Of a stretch of 58,604 bases of DNA, positions 6,479-53,091 are shown piece by piece (within the stretch, counting starts at the first letter, position 1; each line of letters begins with the position of its first letter). This stretch comes from Calothrix sp. PCC 7716 (lineage in GTDB: Bacteria; Cyanobacteriota; Cyanobacteriia; Cyanobacteriales; Nostocaceae). The notes beneath the pieces were generated by a model. That model was not told where the DNA came from. It was given only the letters and a program-made list of their open reading frames with translations, and searched no databases. Position numbers and translations under genes: made by a program. The stretch covers positions 1 through 58,604 of the forward strand of contig NZ_AP025023.1 in assembly GCF_019977735.1 (NCBI RefSeq). Direction: 5' to 3'.

Positions 6479-6498
6479 TATTTAATACATTGAAATAA

Positions 6499-6600
6499 CA
6501 AAAACATAATACAACAAAGCTGTAATGAAATAAACACATCATGATATCAAGAAATAATGCAACAAAGAAGTAATGCAACAAAGAAGTAATGCAACAATTA
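6499..6600. repeat. parS-like iterons upstream of parA
   Basis: TAATGCAACAAAGAAG is repeated with 16-bp period at about 6554-6600 (two full copies and a third partial copy). A diverged unit (AATACAACAAAGCTGTAATG) lies around 6510-6529. They are 20-120 bp upstream of the parA start, where centromere/operator iterons of small RHH par systems are found. Confidence 0.6.
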
Positions 6601-7045
6601 ACTGAAATGATGGTGCCGCCTACTGTACGGGCAGTTGGGGCAATTGTATTGTCTGGGCGCCTCAATACGCATCAACATCTCGGAATCATTAAATGCAACT
6701 TTTAGGTAATGCGGTGACCGCAGAGCGCGCGCAACAGGTTTACACGACAAAAGACTGCGAAAAATTACATCAATATTCGTACTATATCTATATATAGATG
6801 GTCTTTAATCAACCAATTCGGGCACCTTACCAAACCTGTTTTCGCCCGACCGACAGGGAGTGGCGGGAACAGGTAGCGCGGCTTTTTGCCGCTCCCCACA
6901 ACAATTATTTTTCCATTCCATTCTAGGCACTCCCCGCGATAAAGCAACCAGCTTCTAATGCAGCAAAGATTTAATGTAACCAAAAGGTAATGCAGTAAAT
7001 AAATTGCTTCGGGTAGCACCGTCCTTAAAACGGTTTGTATTTGAA
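6601..7045. other. Non-coding DNA with further iteron-like units and a hairpin
   Basis: Degenerate copies of the parS unit recur at 6688-6712 (TTAAATGCAACTTTTAGGTAATGC) and 6957-7000 (TAATGCAGCAAAGAT, TTAATGTAACCAAAAGG, TAATGCAGTAAA), so the putative centromere may be split across about 450 bp. A hairpin with loop TTTTT and arms GCGGC/GCCGC lies near 6878-6892. It is on the 3' side of the HlyD-like gene and could act as a weak terminator, but no U-run follows. No gene was seen. Confidence 0.45.
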
Positions 7046-8644
7046 CTACCTAACATTCTTCAAACTTTCCACACTACTGCTGAACATGTCAGCAAATATA
7101 CTCATCACTGTTCTATCCCTAATCTTGATATTGGTATTAATTCCCATCCCCGACTGCAACGCGATATTACGTCCATTTACGTTTAGCTGCTGACTATCGA
7201 GTTCCACCTTCGCAGGGAATCTGTAGAATGGGTATATTTGGTCGGGTGGTAGTGCATCCGAACCTATCGACACCAGCTTACCTTTGATATCTCCAAATTC
7301 ACTAAATGGGAACGAGTCAATACGCACATCAACAGTCATTCCCTCTTTAACAAACCCAATATCTTTGTTGGTGATATAAACTTTAGCAATTAGTTTATCG
7401 GTGGGGACTATCTTTAATATTGGTTCGGTTGATGATGCAACAAACCCTGGTGTGTGTGCTTTTAATTCAAATACCTTACCAGCAACAGGCGCCTTAATCT
7501 CCTGATACTTCAAATTCATCTTAGTTTGACTAATCTGGGAGTCAGTTTCAGCAATTTTTTTATTATTTTCGACAATTGCTTTCGTTAATTGACTATCAAT
7601 TTCTGCAATGCGTTTATTATTATCAGCTATTTTATCAAGCCAATCTTTACGAGAAACTGCAACAGTATTCTGTAATTTAGCTTGTCCACCTGCTATTTCT
7701 GCTCTAATACGCGCTTTTTCTTGTGTTAATTGGTCAAGCTGGGATTGTGCATTACGTACCTCTTCTTGTTGTTTAAGTAATTGAATCTGGGATATTGCCC
7801 CCTGTTTTGCTAATCCAGTAATATTATTAAGAATACCCTGATTCATTTTAAGGGTATCTTTGGTTGAGGCAATTTTAATATCTGTTTGTTCAACTTGGCG
7901 TTTGAGTTGTTCAATTTCTGATTGTGATGCAGTAACGCGCGCATCTAGTTCAATTTGATTCGATGCAATTCTTTCTCGTTGGTCAATAGATAGTTTACCT
8001 GTGGAACCACCATCAAAGTGGGTACGATACATTTGATTTTCTGCCACCAATGCTGCACGACTTTTAGTTAAGTCTATCATTGATGCAGGTACTTGTAATG
8101 AGGTAACATCAAAAAGAGCGCCGCGTAATTGTGAAGTATAAAAGTTATTTTCCTGTACAAGAGAAGCACGAACTTTTTGTAATGATTCTAGTTGAGCTTT
8201 GGCGGTAGTATTATCAAAAGTAATGAGGCGTTCTCCCTCTTTTACTACAGTACCATCTTTAACGTGAATATCTTTGACTACTCCACCCACTGGTGCTTGT
8301 ACATCTTTAGTGGCGCCGCTTGCTTCGAGTTTACCAGTTGCGGATACAGCTTCCTCGATTTTAGCAATGTTAGCCCAAATAATTGTACCAGTAGTAGCCA
8401 ACATCAATCCCCATAATATTGCCCTTGACCACTTTCTTGGTTGTTTTAATATTACTGGTTGTTCAAACTTGGGAATATATCTAGGTGCATGGTTAGGTGG
8501 TTTGGGTTGAATTTCTTCTGATGGTTGTGATACAAGCTTTTCTAATTGTTCTCTTGAAACTGCCGATGGTATTTGAGGTTTTCCATTATCGTTATGACCA
8601 TTACCATTATCAGAATAGCTGCCATTACCATTATTATTATTCAT
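7046..8644 (-). CDS. HlyD-family type I secretion periplasmic adaptor
   Basis: 532 residues. The N-terminus is a low-complexity Asn/Gly/Asp stretch, then a proline-rich cytoplasmic segment. A single membrane segment follows at about 73-92 (ILWGLMLATTGTIIWANIA). A split lipoyl/barrel-sandwich domain starts with GKLEASGATKDVQAPVGGVV and VKDGTVVKEGERLITFD. A long alpha-helical hairpin (about 155-395) has clear coiled-coil periodicity, with TDSQISQTKMN and EIDSQLTKA-type repeats. The second lipoyl half is IKAPVAGKVFELKAHTPG, and a beta-barrel domain ends the protein. It bridges the inner-membrane ABC exporter and an outer-membrane channel, which is not encoded on this plasmid (a chromosomal TolC-like protein is expected). 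It is the last gene of the secretion run and is separated from the ABC gene by an oppositely oriented S23 gene. Confidence 0.9.
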   Translation of the reverse strand: MNNNNGNGSYSDNGNGHNDNGKPQIPSAVSREQLEKLVSQPSEEIQPKPPNHAPRYIPKFEQPVILKQPRKWSRAILWGLMLATTGTIIWANIAKIEEAVSATGKLEASGATKDVQAPVGGVVKDIHVKDGTVVKEGERLITFDNTTAKAQLESLQKVRASLVQENNFYTSQLRGALFDVTSLQVPASMIDLTKSRAALVAENQMYRTHFDGGSTGKLSIDQRERIASNQIELDARVTASQSEIEQLKRQVEQTDIKIASTKDTLKMNQGILNNITGLAKQGAISQIQLLKQQEEVRNAQSQLDQLTQEKARIRAEIAGGQAKLQNTVAVSRKDWLDKIADNNKRIAEIDSQLTKAIVENNKKIAETDSQISQTKMNLKYQEIKAPVAGKVFELKAHTPGFVASSTEPILKIVPTDKLIAKVYITNKDIGFVKEGMTVDVRIDSFPFSEFGDIKGKLVSIGSDALPPDQIYPFYRFPAKVELDSQQLNVNGRNIALQSGMGINTNIKIRDRTVMSIFADMFSSSVESLKNVR

Positions 8645-8649
8645 ATGTT

Positions 8650-8690
8650 TTTAGCGATTAGCTGTTAGCTGTTAGCTTGAAAGTAAATAT
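8650..8690. repeat. TTAGC-type short tandem repeats upstream of the HlyD gene
   Basis: Copies of TTAGC spaced 6-8 bases (TTAGCGATTAGCTGTTAGC, then TGTTAGC) precede the adaptor start on the plus strand. Similar strings recur at 9165-9195 and 13,008-13,045, on the far side of the S23 gene and upstream of ppiC. They are cyanobacterial short-tandem-repeat-like sequences and might mark the ends of an inserted segment. Confidence 0.5.
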
Positions 8691-8726
8691 TTGAGATTAA
8701 ATTCAATAAACAATATGTTTGATATA

Positions 8727-8755
8727 TTGCTTATCAATGAAATTATTAGTATAAT
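8727..8755 (+). promoter_or_regulatory. Sigma-70-like promoter for the S23 gene
   Basis: TTGCTT (8727-8732) and TATAAT (8750-8755) are 17 bp apart and 46 bp before the S23 ATG. The -10 box is consensus and the -35 box matches at four of six positions. Confidence 0.4.
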
Positions 8756-8800
8756 TATATTGAATCAATTACCTAATAATATTGCTGCATAATTGTTTGT

Positions 8801-9181
8801 ATGAAAGATTTTAAAGACTTAAAGGTTTGGCAAAAAAGTCATAAACTAGTTCTCAGTGTGTATGAAGTAACCGCCAATTTTCCAAAATATGAATTATACG
8901 GTTTAACTAGTCAAATGCGACGTGCATCCGCCTCTATTCCTACTAATATAGCTGAAGGCTGTGGGAGGGGAAGTGATGCCGATTTTGCTCGCTTTCTTCA
9001 AATGGCGATGGGGTCGGGTAGCGAATTGGAATATCAACTTATACTTGTACATGATTTAGGTTTTATTGATAAACTACAATACGATAAATTGAGTAATGAA
9101 CTAATCGAAACTAAGCGTATGCTTAATTCTTTTCTTCAAACACTTAAAGGAAATCCAACACAGCAAAAAGCTAAAAGCTAA
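8801..9181 (+). CDS. Four-helix bundle protein, S23/IVP family
   Basis: 126 residues, full length for the family first seen as open frames in intervening sequences of 23S rRNA. Diagnostic strings are FKDLKVWQKSHKLVLSVYE at the N-terminus, GLTSQMRRASASIPTNIAEG in the middle, and FLQMAMGSGSELEYQLILVHDLG. The family is small, all-helical and pentameric; its cellular role is not established. Here it lies between the ABC exporter and adaptor genes on the opposite strand, so it interrupts the secretion operon. It ends 10 bp before the ABC stop codon, in convergent orientation. Degenerate TTAGC repeats flank it on both sides, and S23 genes are often found as sporadic insertions. It probably arrived as a cassette and has no direct role in secretion. 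Confidence 0.85.
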   Translation: MKDFKDLKVWQKSHKLVLSVYEVTANFPKYELYGLTSQMRRASASIPTNIAEGCGRGSDADFARFLQMAMGSGSELEYQLILVHDLGFIDKLQYDKLSNELIETKRMLNSFLQTLKGNPTQQKAKS

Positions 9182-9195
9182 TTGCTAAAAGCTAG
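9165..9195. repeat. AGCTAAAAGCTAA-type short repeats between S23 and ABC genes
   Basis: AGCTAAAAGCTAATTGCTAAAAGCTAG-like direct repeats, given here only in outline (units AAAGCTA), cover the S23 stop and run into the ABC stop codon. They match in character the TTAGC repeats at 8650-8690 in inverse orientation. Confidence 0.45.
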
Positions 9196-12100
9196 CCGCC
9201 AGATGCTTCCTGCTGTTGGTACAGGCAATAATAAAGACCTTTCATTGCCATTAGTTCATTGTGTGTACCTTGCTCTGCTACCTTCCCTTGACTCATCATC
9301 AGAATAATGTCAGCATTTTTAATAGTTGCGAGACGGTGCGTAATGAATAGTACTGTCCGACCTTTAAATACAGCTTGTAGGTTTGAACAAACTTGTCGTT
9401 CGGTAGCATAATCAAGTGCGCTGGTTGCTTCGTCCATAATTAATAAGGGTGGATTTTGCAGTACCGTGCGCGCGATTGCCATTCTTTGCCGTTGTCCACC
9501 AGATAATGCTGAACCTCTTTCACCAACGCGCGTGTTATAACCGTTGGGCAGGTTCATGATAAAGTCGTGGGCACAAGCAATTTTGGCTGCTTCCACTATT
9601 TCTTCTGGGGTAGCATCGGGCATTGTTAAAGCGATATTTTCCTGTACGGTACAGTCAAATAAGAGAGTATCTTGCAGTACCATCCCAATTTGTTGACGCA
9701 GCGAGTACAATTCAACTTTGCTAATGTCGTACCCATCGATGAGAATTCTTCCTGCATCGAGTTCGTATAGTCGGGGAATTAGTTTAGTAAGAGTACTTTT
9801 TCCGGCGCCACTTTGTCCCACAACACCAACAAACGCACCCTTGGGAATTTCTATTGATACACTATTTAATTGTGGGTTGGGGGATTTAGCAAATGAGAAG
9901 GTGACGTTTTCATATTTGACTTGTCCTTTAATTGCTGGCATTGGTATATTATTTCTACCAGCTAGTTCGCTTTCTTGGGGGGTGTCTAATATATCAGCTA
10001 ATCGTTCCAATGATAATGCAGTTTCTTGGAAGTTCTGCCACAGTTGGATTAATCGTAATAGTGGACTAGTTACATAACCAGCGATAATTCTAAATGCGAT
10101 TAATTCCCCTAGCGTGATTTCTTGTTGCAAAACAAGATAGGCGCCTACCCATAATAATAGTAAGCTGGATAATTTGTTGAGGAAGTTAGATAATGAACCT
10201 GCTGTATTGGATGTGAGTACATTATCAAAACTGGCACTGATATATTTACCATAGCGTTTTTGCCACTGCCACCTTGAATTTAGTTCAATATTCTGTGCTT
10301 TGACTGTTTGGATACCAGATACTACTTCAACTAAATAGGATTGAGTTTCCGCATTACGTTCAGCTTTAGTACGAGTTTGATTGCGAATAATTGGAGCAAA
10401 TATAAACGTCAATAAAGCGAATAATGGTACAGTTGCTAATGCTACAATTGTGAGTAACCAACTGTAAAATATCATCACTACAATATAGATTACCGAGAAT
10501 ATAGCATCCAACACGACAGTGAGTGCTGTACCTGTGAGGAATGAGCGTATATTCTCTAATTCGTTAATCCTTGATGATATTTCTCCTACTGGACGCTTTT
10601 CAAAGTAGCGTAGCGGTAATCTTAACAAGTGGTCGATAACTTCACTACCTAACGATAAATCAATCCGGTTGGTAGTATCTACAAATAAATTAGTACGCAA
10701 CCAAGTGATTACCCCTTCAATGATTGCCATTGCTATCAACACAAATCCCAACACGTTGAGTGTGTTGACACCATTTTGGATAATTACTTTATCAATAATT
10801 ACTTGAGTAACGAGTGGGTTAGCAAGTCCTAATAATTGTACAAATAATGATGCAATAAATACTTCGATTAATACAGTTTTATGTTTCTTGATTGCCGGGA
10901 GAAACCAACTTAGATTAAATCGCTTCTTGGGTGTTTCTGGTGTTGATTGTACAAGGAGTACTTGTCCTTCTTCACCCCAGATATCGATAAAAGCAGCAGG
11001 CTTTTTACGAACGATACCCTGTTCGGGGATAGCGAGTACTAATTCTTTTTCGGTAGCATGGTAAAGAATTGCAAAAGTGTCTTGCCAAGGAATTAATACT
11101 GGTGTAGGTAATTTAGATACTGCAACTGCTGGTACTTCTACTAGTTGTACTTTCAACCCCATCAATTCGGCAATGGCGCCACACAATTCAATTGATATTT
11201 TACCAGTTCGTTGATAATTACTATCGAGCGCGCGTTTGAGTACATCTCGCTTATATGGAATGTTAAAAAATATTGCTAACATTTTGAAAATAGCGAGTAT
11301 TGCATCAACTGGTCCTCGACCATGAATGTAGGGATATTTAGTTTGTTGCTTGTTGCTTGATTCTTCTGCTACTTCTGGTTTTTCTGGTGCAAAAGGTACA
11401 CTATCATAATGATTAGAAGAGGAGGGGGAGAGTGGGAGAGTGGGAGAGTGGGGGATTTCTGAAAATGATAATGTGGGGTCGGTAAACCCGATAAGACGTA
11501 ATCCCTTGGGATTTTCTACTTTAATATAAGTTGTTGATTCGTCCTTGCTCTGATTCCCCCCCTCTCCCCCTCTCCCTATCCCCCCCTCCAAGGAGAGGAC
11601 GCTACCAACAGGATAGTTACTACCTTCACTGCTAACGAACCATAGTAGATTTGGGTCGATTTGATTTAGTGGGGTTTTACCTGATGGTAAGTTTAGGATG
11701 GTAGCATGATTTAATGCTTTGGTTGCTAATTCTTTTAAGTCATGAACAACCTTACCCCGGCGATTAAGTTCGGCGCCTATTAAGTCGAATATTTCTATTA
11801 AATTTATTTGGTTACGGAAGTATGTAGCTATGTGGGGCTGTTTATTTAATAATTCAATAAAATCAGATACTTTGAGAGTGAGGCAGACTGATTCACCTGA
11901 TGAAATGGCAGTTTCACATGCTACATTTCTGATAATACTAGTTACACCAATTATTGCACCTGATTTGAGTCGAGACAATGTTTGTGGCGCCTCTATACTG
12001 GGTGCATATCCCAATAAGCGTGCTTTTCCTGAAAATAAAATAGCTATTCGTGCAGGCAGGTTATCTTTAACTAAAATGGCTTGCCCCATCCGATAGCGTA

Positions 12101-12206
12101 GTGGTTCAATTAAATTTACAATTAGCTCAAGTACCGTTGGTTCGAGCTTGTCAAACGGTGGGATTTTGGCTAGGAATTCGTAGTAGATGCTAGTACTAAT
12201 TGTCAT
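9192..12206 (-). CDS. Type I secretion ABC exporter with cNMP-binding and C39-like domains
   Basis: 1,004 residues, long for a type I exporter. Order of parts: a cyclic-nucleotide-binding-like domain (about 12-135, with ILFSGKARLLGY and ETAISSGESVCLTL); a linker (about 200-285) with SLEGGIGRGGEGG and IPHSPTLPLSPSS, encoded by purine- and pyrimidine-rich repeats; a C39-peptidase-like domain (about 295-430) lacking the Cys and His expected for processing, so probably a docking domain; six-helix exporter domain (about 440-720); nucleotide-binding domain with GQSGAGKST, LSGGQRQRMAIA, LLIMDEATSALD and FITHRLA. It energises export of an unfolded substrate, most likely the giant protein encoded upstream. 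It overlaps the ppiC stop by ATGA, so they are translationally coupled. HetC-like cyanobacterial exporters share this plan. Confidence 0.92.
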   Translation of the reverse strand: MTISTSIYYEFLAKIPPFDKLEPTVLELIVNLIEPLRYRMGQAILVKDNLPARIAILFSGKARLLGYAPSIEAPQTLSRLKSGAIIGVTSIIRNVACETAISSGESVCLTLKVSDFIELLNKQPHIATYFRNQINLIEIFDLIGAELNRRGKVVHDLKELATKALNHATILNLPSGKTPLNQIDPNLLWFVSSEGSNYPVGSVLSLEGGIGRGGEGGNQSKDESTTYIKVENPKGLRLIGFTDPTLSFSEIPHSPTLPLSPSSSNHYDSVPFAPEKPEVAEESSNKQQTKYPYIHGRGPVDAILAIFKMLAIFFNIPYKRDVLKRALDSNYQRTGKISIELCGAIAELMGLKVQLVEVPAVAVSKLPTPVLIPWQDTFAILYHATEKELVLAIPEQGIVRKKPAAFIDIWGEEGQVLLVQSTPETPKKRFNLSWFLPAIKKHKTVLIEVFIASLFVQLLGLANPLVTQVIIDKVIIQNGVNTLNVLGFVLIAMAIIEGVITWLRTNLFVDTTNRIDLSLGSEVIDHLLRLPLRYFEKRPVGEISSRINELENIRSFLTGTALTVVLDAIFSVIYIVVMIFYSWLLTIVALATVPLFALLTFIFAPIIRNQTRTKAERNAETQSYLVEVVSGIQTVKAQNIELNSRWQWQKRYGKYISASFDNVLTSNTAGSLSNFLNKLSSLLLLWVGAYLVLQQEITLGELIAFRIIAGYVTSPLLRLIQLWQNFQETALSLERLADILDTPQESELAGRNNIPMPAIKGQVKYENVTFSFAKSPNPQLNSVSIEIPKGAFVGVVGQSGAGKSTLTKLIPRLYELDAGRILIDGYDISKVELYSLRQQIGMVLQDTLLFDCTVQENIALTMPDATPEEIVEAAKIACAHDFIMNLPNGYNTRVGERGSALSGGQRQRMAIARTVLQNPPLLIMDEATSALDYATERQVCSNLQAVFKGRTVLFITHRLATIKNADIILMMSQGKVAEQGTHNELMAMKGLYYCLYQQQEASGG
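11418..11590. repeat. Paired inverted GGGAGA-type repeats inside the ABC gene
   Basis: The plus strand has GGAGGGGGAGAGTGGGAGAG-type repeats (three GAGAGTGG units, 11,420-11,455). About 100 bp later it has pyrimidine repeats (CCCTCTCC units, 11,555-11,590). Tandem arms in opposite orientation resemble the intergenic elements at 1.8-3.0 kb. They encode the variable linker between the cNMP-like and C39-like domains. Confidence 0.55.
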
Positions 12207-12976
12207 GACATTACTAAAGCTGGTGTTGATGATGGAATAGCGGGATTGTCATTAACAAGAGAAATTGGTGTTTGTTGAATTTGTTCAGCTAACCACTGTT
12301 CAAATAAATGGTTGAGGAGTGTGGCTTTCATTGCATCATCTAGCTGTGCTGGAATTAATTTTTCTAGGCGTACAATTACGTACCAGTTTTCCAGTTTCAT
12401 TGGTGGTAACACTTGTCCTGGTTTAGATGTACCCAATTTCTGTGCTATGGCTGGATGGGCTTGGGATATTGGGACAGGACCAATCAATCCACCTGTTTGT
12501 GCTTCTTGCCCAAGTGAATATTCTTTTGCACAGTCAGCGAATGTGGAGTCTCCATCTTGAATGCGGAAGAATAACTCTTGTGCAATCTCAAAGTTGTCAC
12601 TGCGGAGAAGAGAGTATACAACTTTATCAAGCTGGGATTTACATTGGAGGAAATATTGTTCGAGCTTGTTACCCCAAGTTGCTTGCTTAAATTTTTCTAC
12701 CCGCAATTCCCTTGTGGCGATGGCTTCTAATTGTTGAGGCGTGATACAAAGTTGTTGTTGTGCCGCTGTTATAGCTTCAGTTGTAGTAAGCTTGTGATGT
12801 TGAAAAAATTGTTCTATTGTTGTGGCTTTCTCTTCGGGAGTTAATTCGATGGTCGCAATAGCTTCATCGATAATTACTTCACGTTGGAGTACATGTAATA
12901 TTTTATGCCCAGCAAGTAATTGCGGTAATTCTGCTGGTTGTATCTTTTTATTGCCAATTTGGATAACGGAAGCCAT
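12203..12976 (-). CDS. PpiC-type peptidyl-prolyl isomerase of the secretion operon
   Basis: 257 residues, no signal peptide. The N-terminal two thirds are helical in the manner of SurA/PpiC chaperone domains (EVIIDEAIATIELTPEEKATTIEQFF, ITPQQLEAIATRELRVEKFK). A parvulin domain sits at about 140-225: ADCAKEYSLGQEAQTGGLIGPVP, KPGQVLPPMKLENWYVIVRLEKL. The gene lies between the giant gene and the ABC exporter and overlaps the latter by 4 bp. Similar PpiC-like proteins accompany type I exporters in cyanobacteria. Because it lacks a signal peptide it probably acts in the cytoplasm, perhaps keeping the giant substrate export-competent; that role is inference. TTAGC-type repeats lie just upstream (13,008-13,045). 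Confidence 0.85.
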   Translation of the reverse strand: MASVIQIGNKKIQPAELPQLLAGHKILHVLQREVIIDEAIATIELTPEEKATTIEQFFQHHKLTTTEAITAAQQQLCITPQQLEAIATRELRVEKFKQATWGNKLEQYFLQCKSQLDKVVYSLLRSDNFEIAQELFFRIQDGDSTFADCAKEYSLGQEAQTGGLIGPVPISQAHPAIAQKLGTSKPGQVLPPMKLENWYVIVRLEKLIPAQLDDAMKATLLNHLFEQWLAEQIQQTPISLVNDNPAIPSSTPALVMS

Positions 12977-13236: not shown

Positions 13237-16200
13237 TTATTTGCCTTGATTCAATGGAACGCGCACTTGTGTGGTAGAGATAGTAACGTTACCAGCGCTA
13301 TCGGTTGCACTGTAGGTCAAGGTGTAGATACGAGCGCTACCATTGCCTGAACGTTCCGCGCGTAGGAAGATGCGTCCATCTGGTCTAATTTCGATATCAC
13401 CAGTGGTATTGCCATCACCTGAACCATTAGTAGGTTCGTTGCTAGTAATTGATAGGAGTCGAACGGTGGGGTTAGCATCAAAGTCATCGCGAACATTGAC
13501 GTTAACCTTAACTTCAACCATTTTGTGGTTAGGTGGCCACAATTCGCCAGGTACGGCAGCAACAGTCAATGTTGGCGACTCATCATCATCGATAATGGTA
13601 CCTACACCTTGATTATCAGTAATGTTGGCGTTGATGGCTTCGCTGAGGTTGATGAAGAAGTTTTCGTTCTGTTCGTCTAATCTATCACCAATTATTTGTA
13701 CTGATACTGTTTTGGTGGTTTCCCCGGCTGCGAAGGTGAGGATACCGTTTGTTGCTGTATAATCACTTCCGGCTGTTGCAGTGCCGTTGGCGGTAGCATA
13801 TTTGACGCTGATTGGTTTTTGGCTTGGCGCCGAGAGGCTAACGGTAAAGTTGAGTATTTGTGTACCGTTATGTCCTTCGGTAATGGTTCTATCGTTGATT
13901 GTAATGGCTGGTGGTGCGTCGTTATCAATGATAGTAGTCATACCAGACGCTTTTGTGATGGTAGCGTTGGTGGCGCCATCTAGTTTCAGGGAGAAGTTTT
14001 CGTCAAACTCGTCGATGCTATCACCAAGTACTTGGACTGTTATTGTTTTGGTGGTTTCTCCTGGTGTAAAGGTCAATTTACCGTTAGTTGCGATGTAGTC
14101 AGTACCCGCAGTCGCAGTACCATCGACCGTAGTGTAATCTACTGTGACTGGTTTACCGGAAGCTGTGTTGAGACTGACAGTGTAGGTTACAGCCATCATG
14201 CCGTTGTCGCCTTCGGTGATAGTTCTATCGTTAATTGTGAGTGTCGGCGCCTCATCGTTATCTAAGATTGTACCTACACCACTAGTAGGAGCGATAGTAG
14301 CATTTGTTGAATCGCTCAAGTTGAGGAAGAAGGTTTCGTCAAACTCGTCCAAGGTATCGCCAAGTATCTGTACTGTAACAGTTTTGGTTGTCTCACCTGG
14401 AGCAAAAGTGATGGCGCCACTTGTTGCAGTGTAGTCAGTACCAGCGATTGCTGTACCATCGGCTGTTGCATATTTAACTGAGATTGGTTTAGCGCTGGCT
14501 GCTGACAAGCTAACGGTAAAGGTGGCAATTTGTGTGCCGTTATCCCCTTCAGTAATCGTTCTATCGTTAATTGCGAGCGTCGGCGCCTCATCGTTATCTA
14601 CGATAGTGCCTATACCAGTTGTCGTGGCGATAGTAGCATTCGTTGCATCGCTCAAATTGAGGAAGAAGGTTTCGTCAAATTCGTCTAATGTGTCACCAAG
14701 CACCTGTACTGCGATGGTTTTGGTTGTTTCACCAGGGGCAAATGTAACTGTACCGTTAGTGGCGATGTAGTCAGAACCCGCAGTTGCTGTACCATCGGCA
14801 GTAGCGTATTTAACGCTGATTGGTTTGCCACTTGGTGCAGAAAGATTAACGGTGTAAGTGATGATTGATGTGCCGTTATCCCCTTCGGTTATAGTTCTAT
14901 CGTTAATTGCGAGTGTTGGCGCCTCGTCGTTATCTAAGATTGTACCTACACCAGTAGTCTTATCGATAGTAGCGTTTGTTGCATCGCTTAGGTTGAGGAA
15001 GAAGGTTTCATCAAACTCATCTAATGTGTCGCCAAGTACCTGTACTGTAACAGTTTTGCTTATTTCACCTGGGGCAAAAGTAATGGCGCCAATTGTTGCT
15101 GTGTAGTCAGTACCAGCAAGTGCCGTACTATCAGCAGTAGCATATTTAACAGTAATTGGTTTAGCGCTGGCTGCTGATAAGCTAACTGTGAAGGTAGCAA
15201 TTTGTGTACCGTTATCGCCTTCGGTAATGGTTCTATCACTTATAGCGAGTGTTGGCGCCTCATCGTTATCTAAGATAGTACCTACACCAGTCGTTTTAGC
15301 GATAGTAGCATTTGTTGCATCACTCAAGTTGAGGAAGAAGGTTTCATCAAATTCGTCTATGGTATCGCCAATTAGTTGTACAGTTATAGTCTTGCTGATT
15401 TCCCCACTTGCGAAGGTAATTGTACCGTTGGTGGCGGTATAATCGCTGCCTGAAGTTGCTGTACCATCTGCGGTAGAGTAGTTGGCGGTTACGGTACGTA
15501 AGCTAGCTTCACTCAAGCTGGCAGTAAATACAGCGTATTTGTAACCGTTGTCTCCTTCGATAATTGAGATATCGCCTGCGGTCATTGTGGGTGGTTTCTT
15601 CACCGTGACGTTCATTGTGTCGTTGGAAACGGCGCCCGAATTATCTGTAATGGTGAGGGTAACAGTGTATTCGCCATCTAGTGTGTATGTATGAGATGGG
15701 TTGAGGACACCTGTTACGGTGTTACCATCACCAAAGTTCCACTCGATTGTGTGGGTATCTAATATACCTGGGTCGGTAAATTGTCCGTCGAAGACCACTA
15801 GCTCGTTTTGGTACATGATTTGATTTGCACCAGCGTCTACTGTGGCTGCGACGTTACTCACCTTTGTGGTCAGGGTTTGAGTTGTGGAGGCGCCGAAGTC
15901 GTCAGTAACAGTAAGGGTAACTGTATAATTACCATTGTCTAGGAATGTGTGGTTAACATTTTTACCTTGCACAGGGTCGGAACCATCACCGAAGTTCCAA
16001 GTGTAGGTCAATGTGTCGTTACCTGGGTCAATTGCCTCTGCGCTAAATGTTGCTGGTGTACCTTCTTCTACTTCGGTTGTACCCGTGAGTTGGGTAATTG
16101 TTGGTGCGACGTTGTTGACAGTGACAGTAAGGGTATCGGTCTCTGAAGCACCTGCATTATCAGTAACGGTCATGGTGACGGTGTAGATACCGTTATTGCC

Positions 16201-19200
16201 GTAGGTGTGAGTTGGGTTGAGTACGTTGGTTGCAGTTGTACCATCACCGAAGTCCCATTCGATTGTATGGGTATCAAGGATACCTGGGTCAGTATAGGCG
16301 CCGTTGAAGGTTATTGTTTGCCCTTCATTAGCAGTGGAGTCAGTACCAGCATTGACTATAGGAGCAACGTTGTTGACCTTGACATTGAGGGTTTGTACTG
16401 ACGCGGCACCATCGGAGTCGGTAACAGTGAGGGTGACAGTATAGGCGCCATTGTCAGCAAAGATATGGCTGACATCTTTACCAGAAACTGGGTTAGAACC
16501 ATCGCCAAAGTTCCAGGTATAGGTGAGAGTGTCGTTTCCTGGGTCGGTTGCGGTGGCACTAAAGTTAGCTGTTGCCCCTTCGTTGACTGTGATATCGCCG
16601 TTGATGGTGTTGATAGTTGGGGCGATATTGTTAACAGTAACGGTAATCGTGTCGTTGCTTATACCTCCTGAATTATCAGTAATGGTGAGTTTAGCGGTAT
16701 AAGTGCCATTGTTGGCGTAAATGTGGGTTGGTGTGAGAGTACCGCTTGTGGTATTACCATCTCCAAAGTCCCAAGTAATGGTGTGGGTGTCTAATATACC
16801 AGGGTCGGTGAAGGCGCCGTTGAATGTTACGCTTTGTCCTTCAAAAACAGTTTGGTCACTGCCTGCATCAACGACTGGCGCCACGTTATTAACTGTGACT
16901 AAGAAGGTTTGGAAGCTGTTTACACCTTTGCTGTCGGTAACGGTGAGGGTTGCAGTGTAGGCGCCGTTATCTATATATATATGGTTGACTGTTTGACCTG
17001 TAACAATTTCACTACCATCACCAAAGTTCCAGATGTAGGTGAGGGTGTCACCTGGGTCAGTAGCACTAGCAGTAAAGCTGGTTTGTGTACCTTCGGTTGT
17101 GGTGGTATCACCTGTAATAGCCGTTATGGTTGGGGCAATATTATTTACCGTGATATTGACAGTTGCTTCGTTGGATGTTAATCCGTCTCCATCTTTAACT
17201 GTGTAGGTAAAGGTGTCAGTTCCAACAAATATGGTGTTGGGGGTATATGTAATTGTACCGTCTGGGTTGAGTATGATTGTACCGTTGGTTGGGTTGGTAC
17301 TGATTGCTAGGGTTGTGGGGTTAATGGTTGTTCCTATATCGTTGGCAATTGGGTTAATAATTACTGGTTTGGTTTGGTCGGTGCTTGCTGTGTCGTTATT
17401 CGCAACTGGTGCTATTAAGTCATTATTCAGTAGCATTACGTTGTCGAGGACAACTTTAGCATCTTTTGCTCCGAAACCGAGTAAATCAAAGTAGAGAGTT
17501 GCTGCTGTACCTGCTTGTACACCTGTTAGGTCAACTCTAAATGTAAGTGGTTGGCTGAGGGCGAGAGCGTTATTTTGGGTGGTGTTAACTAGCCTTACTT
17601 TGCTGCTGGTATAAGCTGTGCCGTCGTGTTGGATGTTGAGTAAGGAGTCAGTTTTGGTTAGTCCACTGACTGTATCGATGAGAGATTGTTTGGTTAGTGC
17701 GTTGAGTAATGCGACCTCGAATGCATCACCAGGCGCCTGTTGACTATCCTTACCTAATGTGGTGTTCTTGAGAGTGAATTGTAAGTATTTGGCACCTTCT
17801 GGAATAATAAACGATTGAGAGAAGTTGCTATTGAACGGCGAGTCTTCGGTAAGGACTGCTTCTTTATTTAAGATAGTAGCGGCACCACGGGTTGACCAAC
17901 CAAATTCGGGCTTACTTCTATCTGTTTCGTCGAAGTTACCGTTGGTAATTTCTGCAAGCAGTATTGAAGTTAATGGTGCTTTTAGTTGTGCTATACTGCT
18001 TGACGCAACCGTGGTATTACGGACGGCGTTAATCATTTGTAGGTTTAACCACGACGGTAGCTTACGCACACCTGGAGCAAGCGTATTGTTCATCAGGTCG
18101 TAGGCATGTACCTTCGAGTCGAGGTGGCTACCATCAGTCGTTAGGGTTGCTGTGAAGTCGGCACCGACGAATGTTCGTTTGCCGTTGATGGTTTGGACGT
18201 ACTTGTCGAAGCCTGGGTTGCCATTGATGATGCCTACCAAGTGTCCCATCTCGTGCAGGACGGTGGTTAGTAGGTCGTACTTGCCTGCTGCGGCGCCTGT
18301 GGTCGCGCGGAATGCTGTGTCGGTTAGGGTTTGGGAGAATTCGGTGTTGTCGAATGGGGTAGTATCGATGAACCAGCCTACGCCGTTAGCATCGTTGTCG
18401 ATGAGGAGAGTGCCGCCGTTCGGGCGCCCGTATTGATCGAATTTGGTGATTTGGGCTTCTGCTAGTTGTCCTGTGGGGAGGTCGGCGATTTGGAAGGTTA
18501 GGTCGAATGGGTTGGTGGAGTCGAAGAGAGTAGACCAAAGGGTAGGTGAGTTATCTTTGAATGTGTTGCTTGATGCTAAAGACAAATTATGGACATTGAA
18601 GAATTGTTGGAAAGGTATGCTGCTGGAGAAAGAAACTTTGCTTTTCGTGTCAATTGCAACAGAACTGGTTTGTTCTTGAGAAGTGTTGACCTGAGCGAAG
18701 CTGATCTTAGTGGTATCAACTTGGAAGGAGCCTTTTTGGAAGCCGCTAACTTGAGAAATACCAATCTCAGTGGGGCTAATCTTAAAGGAGTCAACATGTA
18801 TGGGAGTGATTTGACTGGAGCCATTTTTAATGGTGCTGATTTGAGTGGGGCTGAAGGAAGTGAGGCTAACTTCTGCGGTACTTTCTTTGTCAGAGCTAAC
18901 CTGAGCGGGGTTGAAATGAACCAATGTGCTTTTGATGGTGCTAATTTCAGCCACGCCAATCTCAGGGATGCTATCGTGAACGACTCCTTTTTTAACGGCG
19001 CTAATTTCAGCAATGCCGATTTGCGAAATGTCGAGGGCTTTTATAACATTTGTGAGGCTATTTTCAGTAATACTATCATGGAAGATGGAAGTATTTGGTA
19101 CGAAAGTATTGGATATTGAAGACCATGCAATGTTGCTGCCCGCATATATTTCGTTCTTTTGGGAACCCAAAAATTCGTCTGCCAAAAGAGGAACACCATC

Positions 19201-22200
19201 AGGCATATTTGTTGGTTCAAGTTTGTCTTCATTGTCTTTGATATCAGTTTGAGTTGCTGTAGGAAGATATGAGAAGAAATCATAGCCTGTTCTACTTTCG
19301 ATAAAATTTACAGATTTTATATACACGTAGTTGCCTGAAGAGTCTTTCTTTCTCCAATTCGACTCACTGTTTATATCATCATAAAGTTTAAGACCATCTG
19401 GATCTGGCAGAACTTCCGGCGCAGTATTTGGCATCCAAAAGCCAATAGCATATGCGTTATCTTTTGTGATTTGCTCTGGTTTTAAACCCGGTTGGTTAAC
19501 TACTAAAATTACTTGCCATAAAAATTCAGGTATCTTGATAGATGTTTGGTTAGAAAGAGGGTCAGTTCCTGCTGTTCCCTTCGCTGTAAGCTCAACATCT
19601 TTTACCCCATGAGTTCCTGCAACGACGAAAACCTCTTTGTTGCTTAATATTGGATTCTTTACATTGCCTGATAATATAAAACTTTTGACATAGCCTTCAA
19701 ATCCTACCCAAACTCCATTATTGCTAAGTCTCGTTTGTGGCACGATATTAGATAAATGATTAACAGCTATATTATCTTTCCAGTTTCTATCTCTATCTCC
19801 AGTAGGCACTAAATGCCCTAATGCATAATCTACTTTCTTGCCATTTTCAACAAAAGAAATATTTTTACCACTTTCATTTAGATAATCTTTCTTTTGAACT
19901 TGGTAAAACTCACTTGGGAGAGTTTTATCTACTTGATAATTGCGCTTATTGCTTAGAGAAAAACCACCATCAGCAGGCCATATCAAGTCTTTTGTAATTT
20001 GCCAACTAGCCCAATTAGCAGTATTAGTGACGCTGTTATATGACAGTGCATACTGCGGTCTTTCAATTAAAAAGTTATCTCTATAAGTATTTAAAACTTC
20101 TTTTGAATAACCATCTTTCGGGTCAGCATATCTTGCATTACTTGGATTACCAAACCTTAGATTAGTGCTTTGGAAGGCAATATTATCTATATAAAAAGTT
20201 TCACCATCATAGTCTAAAAGTTCAAAAATTGGTTTGATAATCTTACCTCTGAGCTTTTCTGGCACTTGAATATGGAATGTTTCAAAGCCACTAGGAGCAA
20301 AATCTAGTTGTCGAGAAACAACCTGATAATCATATGATAAAGGAGTTTGTTTATTTGTTAGTTCTAGTTCTTTAAGAAAAATTGTGTCCGTTACTTTGTT
20401 ATCAGGATTAGCTGTATCTTGTAGAGTTATCTTGAGTTTTCCTTGACTCTTACCGAGAGACTTAGGCGCAAAGAGGTCAAATCGGAAAACACCCCAACCA
20501 GGCTCTGGTTTTTGATTAGCTTCAAATGGGTCATTATTTTTAATACCATCAGAGCCTCCTAATTTCAAAACTTTATCTGAATTTATTCTTTCTTCGATAG
20601 TTAGAGCCGCATTCAAAAAGCGCTCTTCATTATTTACGGCATTTTCATCTTGTTCTGTGTCGTCAATAGGTTCTGACTCTTCAATAGGCTTAGGATTAGC
20701 TAAAGCAAGGACGGATTTCTTATCAACCAAATATTTTCTTAAGAGAGACGAACCACCATTATGGAAAGACCAACCAGCAACAGGAGCATTTTCATCATCT
20801 TTAGTACCAACATCAAAATTACCATTGAAAACAGTTGGAACAGCAAAATCACCCTCAGCAATATCCTCATCGGTATTATCAAACTTAACCGATACCCGCT
20901 TGCTCATATCCACAGTTGGACGCTTACCACCACCCAAAGCGGAGTAATACCAACCAGTACCAATGCCCTCAGTAGAACCAGAACCTTGTTTTGCACTACT
21001 GGAATACCACGGAGTTAGCGATACATTACTCTCATTTAAATTAAGTAATTTGCTGAGACTCTTCTCACCTAATTGGTCGTAAACAGGTAGCGCTGTTTGT
21101 GTATACCCATTATCAACATCAATAGTATACCCATTATCAACATCATCAATATTTAAATCGACTGTACCCGCATACCAAGAGAATACGTTTCCGTGTGGTC
21201 CTCCTCTACGGTTATCTTCGGTAAACCCAGTACGACCATCAAGTTTAATATTGACATCCGCACCCTCAATAAAGCGACCATTAGGAGTCCAAGTTGAACC
21301 ATTGGGGTTAGCTACAGTTTGGTAGTAATTATCAGCAAAGGTGACATTATCCCAAACTTGAACCGTTGGCTCCTCAAAATCTCTAAAGTCTTTTAATTTA
21401 AAACCAGCTAAATCAACCTTCAAACTTTCCTGATAGAAGTCGTGAGGGTCAATTGTTGTCATCTGCAAGTCGCGAACTTGCTTGCCATCTTTATCAACAA
21501 CAGCATTCCCCTCAGCATCAATTTTCCCACCCGCATAAGGGAAATAAGTTCCTAATCGCTGAATTATTTCGCTATTAACAACAGTTCCGCGACTAAAACC
21601 AATAAAGTGTAAGGGTGAGTCAAACAGCGCTCCATGTTTTCTAATCAAATCACCATTATCGTAATACAACCGAACCAAATTGCCCGACTCATCGCGTTCA
21701 CCAACGTCACCACCCAATGCCTGGTCTAATTGTACAATCGAAGCAAATATAGCATCGGCTGCTCCTTCTGTAAAACCACTATCTGGTTGAGTTGATTCGC
21801 CTTTTGTAGACCATTCAGGTAGCAACACTAATGCTTTATTTTGGTTGATATATTTGCTCTTAATATTGTTAGCCAATGTTGCCAGATAATTCGCATCCCC
21901 TGGATTGAGATTGCCTGTTAAGTCAGTAAGTATTCGTGACTCTTTATCTATAGGAATCCACAAACTCGTTGGTTTGTCGTAGCGCAGAATTAATCCTTTT
22001 TCCGAAGGCAAATCACCATTGGCAGAAGCAATATTGTCAGCTAAATCATAGAAGTTATTGGGAACACCTGTTTGCGTTGGGAACAGCGTGAAGCCATGAG
22101 TAAGCACAGTTACGCTGCTAAATGGGTTGGTACTAACAGGTATAATTGTGTTAAACTTGCCAAACTCAATTTCTGATTGTCCTGCTGTATTAATCGCTTG

Positions 22201-25200
22201 TACAGCCCAGTTATAATTTTGACCAGCAGTTAGCGTGCGTAAATCTGGTAAAGTAAAGCGAGTGATATTATTTTCAGGGTCATTGGTAGGTTGAGCAACG
22301 ACCGTAGTGCCATCGTGCCAGTACCAAGTATTAGTTTCTCGCTTCCAGGTAGCTGTAACAATTCGTCCTGGGTTGAAATCGTTGTAATCCTTCCAGGGTT
22401 CTGATAGCAGTTCCCGTTTTTGCTGCTGGCTTAACTCAGATAGGAATGATGAGTCGGATAAATCAACCACCTTATCCCAAGGTAATAATCCTTTGCCTTG
22501 GTCAAAAGTACTGACGAAGAGGTTAACTTCTTTAATTTGCTCGTCCGGAATTTGGAAATCCCAAGTAAAGGTAGGAGTTAAATCTCCCTCTTTAATACCA
22601 TTAGGACTCGTTAATTTCAGTACATCTGGAGGCGATACAGCCAAATTTCTAACAACACCAAAGTTTACAGGCGCCCGATTACTTCCCTCAAACACTCCAT
22701 AAGTAAATTGATTTTTTACCCGGTCTTCTTTGATAATTCCATAATCAGCAGCAACACTGATTTTCGGGTTAATATCATCAAGTGGTACAGTATCAAAGTC
22801 AAAGATGTTAGCCTGACGTTGATAACGAGGGTCAAAGAATTTAGAACCAATTGGTCTACCAAACTGGTCAATAATATAGTCAGTTGGGCGTTCCAAAGTT
22901 TTTATCATTTCCTCGACATCAAATACATATACACCACCACCTAGTGGGTAGGAAGCATATAAATATTTATCGTCATTGGAAAGTGCTAAATCGCTGGTTA
23001 AACCTAGAGGAATGGGTCGTGTTGCGGCAAACAACAGTGGATTATCGCTGAGTGGGTCTTTAATAATACCAATATTGCTACCTGCTTGGACTCCATCAAC
23101 ACTTTCAAAACCGTAACCAAAGTTACTGCCATTAAAACCAGCTACAAATCCATATTTTTTGTCTTTGGTGATAGTAACTGCTACACCTTCATTAACATCA
23201 AAGTAGTCATGAATGCTGCCAAGATTTAATTTGGCATAGCGTGTTTTAGCAGCAAAGAAAATTGAGGCTTCGTCGTTAGTTATTTCCAGAACCCCATAAC
23301 CTGTACCATCACTCTTACGATTGGTAAAGGTCATAAAACGCGGGTCAGGTGTAGCAGCTAATCCCTCAACTCCTCTGTCAGCATCAATTGTGGCAAATTG
23401 TTCGTGCCATCGATTCAGATTATTTTGGTAAGATTCAGGTTTATCTTTGGGGTCTATATTAATGACCGCAATCTTACTTTTTTCTGTACCAAACGCAGGC
23501 GCCGTTGCAAACAACCTACGACCATCACTGTTAATTGCTAGCTCGCGTAATCCACGAGGTGCATTGTTGATTTGGATGTTTTGGATTACTTGATGGTAAG
23601 TTTTTGAGGCTGGATTAATATCTAATACGTATATTAGTCCTAGGCGCCCATCAGCAATGTAAGCGTATTGGTTTTGCTTGTCAATTACAATTGAGCGCGG
23701 TGAGGCAGCAGTTGGTAAATTGATAGTGTCAATTTCTTCAGTTTCTGGATTTGTATCTATTGCTTGCAAGAACAATGGGTCAACCAGTGCAATGCGACCA
23801 GAATTTTCTAAAGTTACATAAGCACGGGCGCCGTCTGCGGTAAAAGCAATATCTCGTGGTCTATCTGCCACCCCATCAGCACCTACTGGGATACGCGCTA
23901 CCAATAAGTCTTTGCTGCTTTTTGCTTCAACTACTGCTTCTGGGTTTGTTCCTTGTAAAACAGCAACCTTATCACTCCAAGGTTGGGATGCCAAAACATA
24001 ACCATTATTAGCAGATAAGCGGATGGGGTTACTATCGTACTTAACTATTTGATAGCTATCAGCTTCAGTACCAATGCGTTCCTTCTGAGTTCGCGTTACT
24101 GAGATTTCGGCACTTCCCAAAGCTATTTTGTTTGAAGATTTGACTCGAACTTCAAACTGATTGTTACCCAAGTCTTTACCGGATAAAATTGTACCTTGAT
24201 AAATCTCGTTACCAACACGGAAATTAACAGCCAAATCCTCAAGTCTCGTGTTGCCAGCATTAGTTGTGTTATCTGGCAACACAAAATTGCTACCCGTTAA
24301 AACTAATACAGGTTCCTTTGTGTCATCCTCTTTGGTTTCAATTTTCAACTCTGCTTTCTGCAAAATAGGAGACGCTTGGGGGTCAGCTGTCTTTGGTGCG
24401 GGTAAGTTTAGCCTTGTTTCAAAGGTAGCTACCCCATCTGGGTTTAGTTGTACGTTGGCAGAAGTGACCACAGGTAGTCCAACCATTGGAACTTGTACAA
24501 TATCCACCTTCGAGATATCGTAGCTAACTTTAAAAGCAGGAATTGAGAAAAATAAATCTGGGTTTAGTAATTGTCCAAAAGCACTGTACGGTTTAATTAT
24601 CTCAAGGATTTTTTTCAGAACATCTGAATTAATTGATGATGCTTGAGAAAGCGCAACTCCCAGTTCAGCAAGATTCTGTGCTTTTTCGACATATCCTTTG
24701 ATTTTTTCTACTGTTTCTAAAGGAGTTTTAAGTAACTTAAGTACATCACCAATGTCCTTGAGAATTTTGACCTTGCTGTTAGAGAATGTTGCTAAAGCAA
24801 TACCGAATCCTATTTTTCCGAGGTCAATATCGGGTGCAGGTGGCGGAATAAGTATTCCGTAAAAGGCAGGTGGGAATTTATATTCGAGGCTTACTCTACC
24901 CCTAACTATGCTGCCATTACCAGCAGTTCCAGAGTAAATAACTGCATATTCGCCTGGTTTAGTAACACCTGGATATGGAGGTGAGGAAGTACGAATCATT
25001 CCATCCGCCGTGACTTTACCTGATTCTTCCAGCATCCACATTGGTTGCCAAGTTCCTGTTGCATCAGGCATTGAACCTTTACGCATGAAGTAAACTTCGG
25101 TGCCAACAGGTAAATTAGCAGGGGCAGGAATTGCAATTTGTGCGGGGATAAGGAGAGTATTGTCACCAAGATTTAAATCAAAACCACCTGCAAATTCAAA

Positions 25201-28200
25201 TCCACTCGGTAGCGGTAGCGATAAATCCTCTTTCTCATCTAAAACTGTAAAGTTAACTAAAGCATCTTCTGTCAATGCACCTTGAGCCAGCATGAGCAGC
25301 GAACGATGCTCACCATCCCCAACCTGAATAATTCCTCCACTAAAACCAAGCTTAGTTTCACCGTTAACAAGCGGAGTCGGCTTTTCTATACGCACGGGTA
25401 CTATTGCTTCTGCGGCGCCGTAAATAACAGTAACGTTTGCAATACCTTCATCCAACGCTGTAATTAGCCCATCCGAACCTACTTGCAATATATTTGGATT
25501 ATTGACAAAGTAGCGAGTACCCGCATCTTTAAACTTAAGGTCTGGTGATTCCTCAACTCCATATAAGCCAACCAACAATTGTCTTGTCATACCTTTTGCT
25601 AGCATGACGGCTTCTGGGTATAAATCCAGACCTTGTTCTTCTGCAATCGCAATATTTAACTCGGTTTGATTTATAGGCTGCAACTCACCCACTCGCAGCG
25701 CTGTAAATGCACTAATTCCATTACGTTTAGCACTAAGCACTGACACACCATCACTTAACCCAGTAACCACACCCATATTTGTTACAGACGCCACCGTAGA
25801 CTTATCAGAAGCAAACTGCAAATACGAGTAAGGTAAAATGACATCCTCTTGGTCTGCAAAATCCCCAATTACAACCAACTCGGTACTTCCACCCTTATCA
25901 AGACGCAACCCACGCTTCACAAAATCAAGATTAATCAGCGCTGCATTGCTAACATTAACATCGACCTTAACGGGCGCCGACGTACTATACCCATCATCCG
26001 CAACCAGCGTAAAGCTAGCGGCGCCAAAATAATCATCATTCGGCGTAAACAGTACCGACTTACCATCAGGAGTAAAGCTTGCATTACCATTTTCTGCACT
26101 AATAATACGGAAGAATACCGCATCTCCTTCTGGGTCAGTAGCTAATTTATTTAACGCAACTGTTGCATCTAAATCAACGTGGGTTAGTACGTTTGTTGGT
26201 TTTACAACAGGCGCCCGATTTGCAGTAAACCCATAATTACTACCAAGAATCTGCACATCGGCAGCATTTAATACACCATCACGGTTAAAGTCGTAGGCTT
26301 TATCATTGCTACCAAGACGTATTGCCGCATCTAACAAATCACTATCAACACCATCTACAGCACCATCGCGGTTAATATCCCCAGCAACAGTGAGTTGTAA
26401 GTTATACGCACTACCAGCAGCAACTTCAACCAAATTCAACCCTGCTTTATCAATAGCGTACAGTGCATAATTACCATTAGTAGCGACTGGCGCCAACCCA
26501 TTAAGTGCAGGCATTCTCAACACACCATTGCCCGATGCTTCCACACCCACGAGGACAATACCTGTAGCAGTGGAACTAATCTCACCATCTCTCAAGCTAA
26601 ACGTGTATCTATCATTACCTGCACCACTCGTTGTCTTACCGTTCCACTGTACTGCACCACCCAAATCACCCTTCACGGTAGACACTTGTGGTGTGGCGCC
26701 ATAACTAATTACACTTCCAGAAGTACCAGGATTACCACTTGCCAATGTCAACAACTCTTCAGTGTAACCATAACGACTAGCATTACCAGTAGATAGATTG
26801 CGCGCGGCAACTAAATTGCTACCTTCATATGTATAGCTAACCAAAGTTCCATCAGGCGCCGTTATTTGCTGTAATCTACCAGCAGCATCCTTAACAAATC
26901 GAATCGTCTCACCAGTCGAGGAGGTTATACCACTATCGCTGTAAACTAACCGAGTACCATTGGTTGCAACTTGCTCAACTACACCTTTATCAGTACTGAG
27001 ATAGTAAACATTACCACTACCATCAGTGAGTTTGTACTCATAACCATCGAACCTTCCACTCGCAGGATTATACGCAAACCCAGTCTTCAAATCGTAGAAG
27101 CTATTACCAGCAGCAGTTAGCTTCGCATCAACCGACTCTAATTTATAGCCAGCAGCGTCAGATACCCATGCTGGTGTGTAATATGTAGCACCTGGAATAG
27201 TTACTTTCTGTGGTGCAAACGTAAACCCAATTCTATTACCATCCGGCGCCGTCAAATACAACCTTGTACCGCTACGGAACGGACTGTATACACCTAAATT
27301 CTCACTACCAGTAGGTGTTACGTTCGTTTGGATATCAGCATCAATATTCGCCAAACTCCAACTATTACCAAACGTACCAGTTTCATCATTTAATAATGAG
27401 TTGTAGGTACGTATTATATTGACAGTGGCGCCACCAATTGTAGTAGTAAGGTCAGTTTCCTTGCGTATATAAGCATTCTTCGACGTATTTGATACTTCAA
27501 TATTTGAAGTAGTAGTGCTGGTACGACCACTAATATCAGTAGCACTCAACCGCAGTTGATAGAAACCATTTACATATCTACCAGGGTCAAATTGTGACAA
27601 TACCCCATCCCTTGATTGAGTACCGCGCGCGATTGTTGTAAATTCATTGCTATTAAATTCAGCTATTTGCAACACCCATTCATCAAGATTGGTATCAGTA
27701 ACAACCCCAGTAATATTAGTTGCACTTTGTACTTTACTGTTATCCAACCCAGCAGCAAAGCTAACTATTGGTGCAGCATCATCACTAACATCACGAATCT
27801 TAACAACCTTACTAGTGCTACTGGTTCGACCATCAGCATCAACAGCGATTGCCTCAACAACAACCTTACCTGGTGCAGTAGGTGTAAACTCAAACCTACC
27901 GAATGTATCGATTGGTACTACTTGACCAGCAACTTTGGCTGTTAGTGAGGTGATTGTTGCAAGTCCTGCTGCTTGTGTTTGTACAATTACTTTTTGTCCT
28001 GGTACAGCAGGGAAACTAGGTGTTAAATCTAACGTTACAGTTGGAGGTACTGGCGCCAATGCCACTCTAATTAAAGCATTTTGAGTTGCGGTTAAATCGC
28101 CATCAGATACCCTAAATGTGACAGTATAATTACCAACTTGTCCAGGGTTTGGTTGCCAGTTAAATTGTCCAGTTACAGCATCAAGTGTGGCGCCTTCTGG

Positions 28201-53089: not shown

Positions 53090-53091
53090 TT

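Follow-up and report, generated by a model that had tools for sequence, protein, structure and literature searches.

Orphan immunity genes and orphan modules are known among polymorphic toxins. Some proteins with the pentapeptide fold mimic DNA, and the pentapeptide proteins NP275/NP276, HetL, AlbG, MfpA, and Qnr are, to our knowledge, encoded by stand-alone genes. Passages of one account describe the Qnr/MfpA/AlbG group as protecting or inhibiting topoisomerase (PMC7897471). Embedded antisense ORFs are known in bacteria, and the functionality of bacterial antisense proteins is debated, according to excerpts of PMC7457138. Induction of the nuclease NucA is lethal to Synechocystis in a kill-switch study that has NuiA as the inhibitor (passages of PMC4890671).

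The window, by which we mean the whole stretch of DNA analyzed, measures 58,604 bases; it is an entire contig of Calothrix sp. PCC 7716 and possibly a plasmid. It encodes a giant protein whose ORF contains a pentapeptide-repeat gene on the opposite strand. A literature search among open-licence PMC papers found no paper with this arrangement in the best-ranked matches. The main features are:

13237..44220, minus strand: giant ORF, 10,327 aa, no cysteine
19258..20100, minus strand: DNA/RNA non-specific endonuclease domain (PF01223, 8.7e-28), GH motif present
18589..19116, minus strand: giant linker, residues 8369-8544, the pentapeptide codons read in antisense and in register
17929..18537, minus strand: matrixin-like domain, HEMGH at about 18241-18255
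18589..19119, plus strand: pentapeptide-repeat gene, 176 aa, contained entirely in the giant ORF but on the other strand; candidate immunity gene
12203..12976, minus strand: PpiC-type peptidyl-prolyl isomerase
9192..12206, minus strand: ABC transporter with a peptidase C39 domain (type I secretion)
7046..8644, minus strand: HlyD-type adaptor (type I secretion)

The Giant ORF and Its Neighbors

The nuclease domain of the giant is of the Endonuclease_NS (NucA) type; with both a Pfam match and the catalytic GH motif, it is putatively active. It lies on the N-terminal side of the linker and the matrixin-like domain on the C-terminal side; about 1,900 giant residues follow the nuclease, which is thus not the C-terminal toxin of a polymorphic toxin. 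A Pfam search with the second domain (17929-18537) gave no match, and its NCBIfam match (NF038122) is weak and under the cut-off. Its text, HEMGHLVG, departs from the HExGHxxGxxH zinc motif of matrixin metalloproteases; because the third zinc His is absent at the usual spacing, we label the domain matrixin-like only. Cysteine is absent from the window's giant (10,327 residues) and occurs twice in the 11,600 residues of the giant of G002.

Genes for a C39-ABC transporter and a HlyD protein are adjacent to the giant, a linked export system from which its export is predicted. Genes of the same three kinds (transporter, PpiC isomerase, and HlyD) are also annotated next to the giant of Nostoc sp. 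TCL26-01 (L112).

Other elements of the window include three near-identical stretches of ~220 residues at giant residues about 500-1,170 (about 40,700-42,700, minus strand), in an N-terminal part that is poorly conserved relative to G002. A second long ORF antisense to the giant (31925-32644, plus strand; 239 aa) is out of codon register by its coordinates, and a Pfam search with it gave no match. A phage-type integrase (4102-5067, minus strand) and a DUF3987 protein (52918-56724, plus strand) are also encoded. PADLOC returned no match.

The Antisense Pentapeptide Gene

The 176-residue product of the embedded gene (N-terminal sequence MDIEELLERYAAGERNF) consists of tandem A(D/N)LXX repeats and matches PF00805 (4.4e-43), PF13599 (1e-16), and PF13576 (6.1e-16); the nearest NCBIfam model is HetL, far under the cut-off. 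AlphaFold2 predicts a confident right-handed beta-helix (pLDDT 93.3), and the model matches NP275-NP276, HetL, and AlbG. The protein is acidic, with a charge of -14, but so are other pentapeptide proteins (means: -9.2 for the cassettes, -7.5 for controls).

Over 18589-19119 the minus strand has zero stops and is read codon on codon with the pentapeptide frame, in which TTA or CTA encodes 0 of 16 leucines and TCA 0 of 14 serines. The initial annotation had described this register and the missing codons correctly, and the homology to pentapeptide proteins that it saw in the plus frame is genuine, as the PF00805 match attests. The giant linker produced from the same DNA is rich in S, I, Q, and T. 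It is probably disordered between the nuclease and the matrixin-like domain: for the greater part it has a pLDDT of about 20-29, in a model of the nuclease-linker-matrixin part that has a mean pLDDT of 45, was built from a shallow alignment of 24 sequences, and lends weak support to disorder.

The start of the window's pentapeptide gene has no Shine-Dalgarno (SD)-like motif ahead of it. Of 47 cassette starts, 36 have such a motif ahead of them, but so do 9 of 13 control ORFs without a matrixin flank, a poor control of which two are stop-free tandem cassettes.

Recurrence in Cyanobacteriia

With the 230 giant residues that follow the linker as the query, matches were found at family level in 31 of 217 genomes (E up to 1e-5), at order level in 32 of 388 (1e-10), and at class level in 17 of 388 (1e-15), the three sets overlapping; among plasmid records, 17 of 72,556 matched. 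Strong plasmid matches are found in Calothrix sp. NIES-4105, Nostoc sp. TCL26-01, Aulosira laxa NIES-50, Calothrix brevissima NIES-22, Nostoc sp. UHCC 0926, Anabaena cylindrica PCC 7122, Gloeothece verrucosa PCC 7822 (two records), and Stanieria cyanosphaera PCC 7437. In one locus after another, the segment ahead of the matrixin-like domain is a pentapeptide ORF read in antisense and in register, with a common start of the type ELLxRYAAGERxF; the cassettes measure 110 to 302 aa, and the mean pairwise identity of the pentapeptides is 0.34.

An antisense pentapeptide ORF is present in all 34 open frames that have an intact Endonuclease_NS domain and a matrixin-like domain, and it always lies between the two; the suggestion that the text ahead of the matrixin domain may recur in other cyanobacterial giants is thus borne out. 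These frames (28 modules in one set and six in a second) are open by definition, and in each both the nuclease GH and the matrixin-like domain were seen; among the first 28, GH comes from a motif check in 27 and from the printed translation in Aulosira. The pentapeptides of G536a and G450 have a variant form, missed by the pattern search and recognized by eye. None of three matrixin-like frames without an intact nuclease has a pentapeptide ORF (Fisher p 1.3e-4 versus 34/34), a comparison with only three negatives, made among loci found via the matrixin-like domain, so that a nuclease giant without that domain could escape it. The Gloeothece giant G494c has GQ in place of the nuclease GH, and its linker of 76 codons has stops on the other strand; G342 and G245 have a matrixin-like domain, no detected nuclease, and no antisense pentapeptide. 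At least five further frames (G450, G557, G025, G680b, and G411b, the last with broken frames) combine the ORF with only a C-terminal piece of the nuclease. No antisense pentapeptide was seen in the matrixin-matching fragments G223:C3, G203:C64, G174:C10, G120:C163, and G294:C86, or in the matrixin-matching loci G199, G142, G249, G150, and G024, several of them paralogous or distant.

At L091 (G245:C2), another domain stands at the place of the nuclease, upstream of the matrixin-like domain; 500 aa are without a Pfam match, and there is no antisense pentapeptide. This giant may represent a different type of toxin, one whose immunity gene lies elsewhere.

In the Nostoc plasmid pTCL26-01 (L112, NZ_CP040298.1 24772-25302), the embedded pentapeptide gene is annotated as WP_256872023.1, and the gene table, which is incomplete, has no CDS for the giant there; for Anabaena cylindrica and Gloeothece the giant is annotated and the pentapeptide gene is not. 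Annotation can thus favor either reading of overlapping frames.

Selection on Both Reading Frames

In five pairs of giants or long ORFs (G147/G203, G209/G238, G209/G101:C2, G101:C2/G238, and G000/G101:C1a), pN/pS is 0.22-0.40 for the pentapeptide frame and 0.85-1.36 for the giant frame; substitutions cluster at the third codon position of the pentapeptide, and the giant's amino acids are unconserved. The free homolog G003:C12, which is 63% identical to the window's pentapeptide protein and has seven antisense stops, gives a pN of 0.206 and a pS of 0.641. In the part of alignment A3 (24 sequences) that covers the linker, a single residue is invariant, the His encoded opposite the ATG of the pentapeptide gene; pentapeptides that differ greatly still share the start position and the GERxF motif.

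The antisense register is free of stops in 31 of 36 pentapeptide ORFs with a matrixin flank and in 0 of 24 ordinary pentapeptide ORFs; the 36 come from loci fetched for that flank, plus the relative G003:C12, and their selection was blind to stops. The five exceptions, with 1, 1, 1, 7, and 10 antisense stops, all lie outside giants. Under the codon usage of the 24 ordinary ORFs, the chance of an open antisense frame is about 1e-3 for the window's ORF and about 1e-8 for the 303-codon ORF of G225.

Codons that give cysteine in antisense are strongly depleted in 47 flanked, stop-free cassettes compared with the 24 ordinary ORFs: alanine GCA, 14/874 versus 190/768 (p 2e-51), and threonine ACA, 10/429 versus 82/316 (p 3e-23). 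The arginine-giving codons are also rarer (GCG, 26/874 versus 83/768; ACG, 11/429 versus 41/316). By location, GCA and ACA counts are 6/547 and 4/274 in the 29 cassettes within giants or long ORFs, and 8/327 and 6/155 in 18 free cassettes, which still carry the mark of cysteine avoidance. Antisense-stop codons (leucine TTA/CTA, 0/993 versus 268/860; serine TCA, 0/532 versus 22/436) give counts that are partly circular, the cassettes having been chosen as stop-free; the cysteine counts and the 31/36 are unaffected. Two of the eight flanked ORFs with stops in this codon count (L011 and L020) probably passed only because the flank pattern was loose.

Because antisense-cysteine codons are rare and the giants of the window and G002 have no or almost no cysteine, the simplest reading is that the linker is translated and held low in cysteine. 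On these comparisons both frames appear to be under constraint, as in an antisense overlapping gene pair, and we are nearly certain that the pair is maintained as such. The initial annotation had proposed a test for synonymous constraint on each strand: it appears as the low pN/pS of the pentapeptide frame and as the avoidance of cysteine and stops in the giant frame. Its linker created by overprinting an inverted pentapeptide gene finds no support as a one-off event, given recurrence in many families of the class, purifying selection on the pentapeptide, and the kept start; nor does a leftover fossil fit a pentapeptide frame whose synonymous codons also avoid cysteine and stops in the giant. 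The nuclease, the joint exchange, and the free cassettes go beyond what the initial annotation described. A chance or low-complexity origin of the register match is ruled out by the Pfam match, the 31/36 versus 0/24, and pN/pS, and a recent one-off overprinting by the spread across the class.

Exchange of Nuclease and Pentapeptide

Comparison of the G000 and G002 giants in 150-residue bins gives identities of 0.76-0.96 at residues 1951-6150, 0.25-0.57 at 6301-8550, and 0.66-1.0 at 8551-10327, where the lowest and highest bins are poorly aligned. The right edge of the variable stretch (6301-8550) is the pentapeptide start. A second variable stretch, at residues 301-1650, has identities of 0.33-0.39.

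In 14 of the 28 complete modules the pentapeptide and the nuclease have the same best partner, and in one the pentapeptide and the matrixin-like domain do, for a permutation expectation (5,000 permutations) with a mean of 1.04 and a maximum of 7; the best partners differ in the other 14, the window's module included. The nuclease and pentapeptide of G002 are 0.80 and 0.71 identical to those of G335, from another family, and its matrixin-like domain is 0.91 identical to that of G000. Where the matrixin-like domains are at least 0.80 identical (25 pairs), mean identity is 0.337 for the nuclease and 0.350 for the pentapeptide (background, 0.345 and 0.340). The nuclease and pentapeptide thus appear to be swapped together within a conserved framework, which is how the variable toxin stretch of a polymorphic toxin is exchanged. 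Against this, the overall rank correlation of identities is only 0.22 between nuclease and pentapeptide (0.06 between pentapeptide and matrixin), half of the best partners do not coincide, and joint exchange may reflect linkage alone because the two are adjacent.

Free Cassettes

Pentapeptide ORFs that are open in antisense, or nearly so, also occur outside giants, several of them in tandem (G106:C1, G160:C1, G282:C194, G073:C33, and G124:C1). Of 22 fetched non-giant loci, 19 retain a partial match to the matrixin profile and 20 lack any match to the nuclease; weak nuclease remnants are present at L101 and L137, and one locus (G120:C163) has no pentapeptide ORF. Arrays of nuclease, pentapeptide, and matrixin pieces are found in G821b and G536b. 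By analogy with polymorphic toxins, the free cassettes and module arrays resemble orphan immunity genes and modules.

Similar text recurs next to the 3' end of several free cassettes (L096, L099, L102, L105, and others), such as GFVPQPNLRGIAI or GTLRERSSTQPTRNCDST, and is possibly a short interspersed repeat with a part in their movement.

In a tree of 85 pentapeptide proteins, for which the bootstrap is unsettled and the repeat alignment uncertain, the 29 giant-borne proteins do not form one clade, and well-supported branches force at least eight label changes. A single origin of the giant-borne pentapeptides finds no support in this tree; genes have moved between giants and free loci.

Known and Candidate Inhibitors beside Free and Giant-Borne Nucleases

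A NuiA homolog lies within the fetched flanks of 26 of 29 free NucA-type loci (fetched loci only, from many more matches), identified by Pfam (6.4e-47) and by PDB matches named NuiA and sugar-non-specific nuclease inhibitor; none of the 29 has a pentapeptide ORF. The set also includes six loci with a giant-borne nuclease, and there the pattern is the opposite: the pentapeptide is present in all six, and flanks of about 1.5 kb give no NuiA match. With nuiA beside free nucleases and the pentapeptide beside giant nucleases, the pentapeptide gene thus seems to take the place of the inhibitor gene in giants.

A Proposed Toxin-Immunity Module

We think it fairly probable that the giant is a polymorphic-toxin-like protein whose gene adjoins a type I secretion operon, with the pentapeptide gene as its immunity gene on the antisense of its linker. 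Comparison supports the overlap, the constraint on each frame, the link to an intact nuclease, joint exchange, and the free cassettes; from the model we infer that the pentapeptide protein may neutralize the nuclease, its beta-helix acting as a DNA mimic, and that the giant may be secreted and kill. A giant, cysteine-free protein would carry the non-specific nuclease domain next to its type I secretion operon, and the immunity gene would lie on the opposite strand, directly behind the nuclease, contained codon on codon in the ORF of the toxin. One strand would be read into an acidic folded beta-helix in the producer, the other into a probably disordered, cysteine-poor linker. Recombination between frameworks would replace nuclease and pentapeptide jointly, with the giant ORF staying open because the pentapeptide gene lies inside the exchanged stretch, and cassettes leaving a giant would persist as orphan immunity genes. 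The candidate immunity gene, whose product may neutralize the nuclease, adjoins it in 34 of 34 frames. That antisense immunity is inherited and exchanged as one unit with the toxin, and that these pentapeptide proteins are a new class of NucA inhibitor, has in our estimate somewhat more than an even chance.

The pentapeptide gene might instead be a functional, maintained antisense gene that is unrelated to the nuclease (a regulator, a topoisomerase protector, or an antisense control) and only physically linked to it. Pentapeptide paralogs are many (49 matches in the genome of the window; all 100 searched genomes positive), as are the roles of such proteins; HetL, distant as it is, remains the nearest NCBIfam model, and adjacency alone would yield joint exchange. 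Its presence, however, tracks an intact nuclease (34/34 versus 0/3), and comparable free nucleases have nuiA nearby; we consider an unrelated role unlikely, though one to be taken seriously. The target could also be the matrixin-like protease, whose domain lies about 17 codons from the pentapeptide start and part of whose profile is matched by 19 of the 22 non-giant loci. This becomes highly improbable in view of G494c, G342, and G245, which have the domain and no pentapeptide, and of the sequence partnership, which is with the nuclease in 14 of 28 modules and with the matrixin-like domain in one; on both grounds a tie of the pentapeptide to the matrixin-like domain is disfavored. The scarcely credible reading is that the giant frame alone matters, as an S/T/Q-rich spacer with the pentapeptide frame a by-product or insertion fossil: the composition and modeled disorder of the linker would suit it, but changes fall at pentapeptide third positions without conserving the giant's amino acids, the start and GERxF persist across very different pentapeptides, and G003:C12 is still conserved despite its antisense stops (pN 0.206, pS 0.641).

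Comparison with Known Systems

Like the NucA-NuiA pair of Anabaena (NuiA 1j57, 1ktu; 2o3b), the giants have a PF01223 nuclease with a second gene beside it; NuiA, however, belongs to the unrelated family PF07924 and is encoded by a separate, non-overlapping gene, whereas the giants have the pentapeptide ORF instead. The embedded protein shares repeats and, by its predicted structure, the fold with NP275/NP276, HetL, AlbG, MfpA, and Qnr, and its N-terminal part is similar to NP275 and HetL. If the immunity reading is true, it would give pentapeptide proteins a nuclease-inhibitor role and explain where some of the numerous cyanobacterial paralogs come from.

Coding ORFs embedded completely, or nearly so, in antisense are described for pop, ano, and other genes of Escherichia coli O157:H7 in passages of PMC9927249, PMC7103648, and PMC5960689. 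Compared with what those passages describe, the present case has an embedded protein of a known family, class-wide recurrence, and mutual codon signatures; expression was measured for the E. coli genes and is predicted for this pair. With both products recognizable and each frame marking the codons of the other, the question of antisense function becomes directly testable.

Searched passages of a polymorphic-toxin review (PMC3482391) contain neither "pentapeptide" nor "antisense." The likeness to CDI/Rhs-type polymorphic toxin modules lies in an exchangeable toxin stretch within a conserved framework, an adjacent candidate immunity gene, free immunity-like genes, and module arrays; the difference is that here the toxin is internal, not C-terminal, and the candidate immunity gene is antisense inside the toxin ORF. 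The module thus works like a polymorphic toxin-immunity module but misses one defining feature, a C-terminal toxin. If the pentapeptide does confer immunity, this would be a new toxin-immunity layout, with a mechanical reason for toxin and antidote to travel together.
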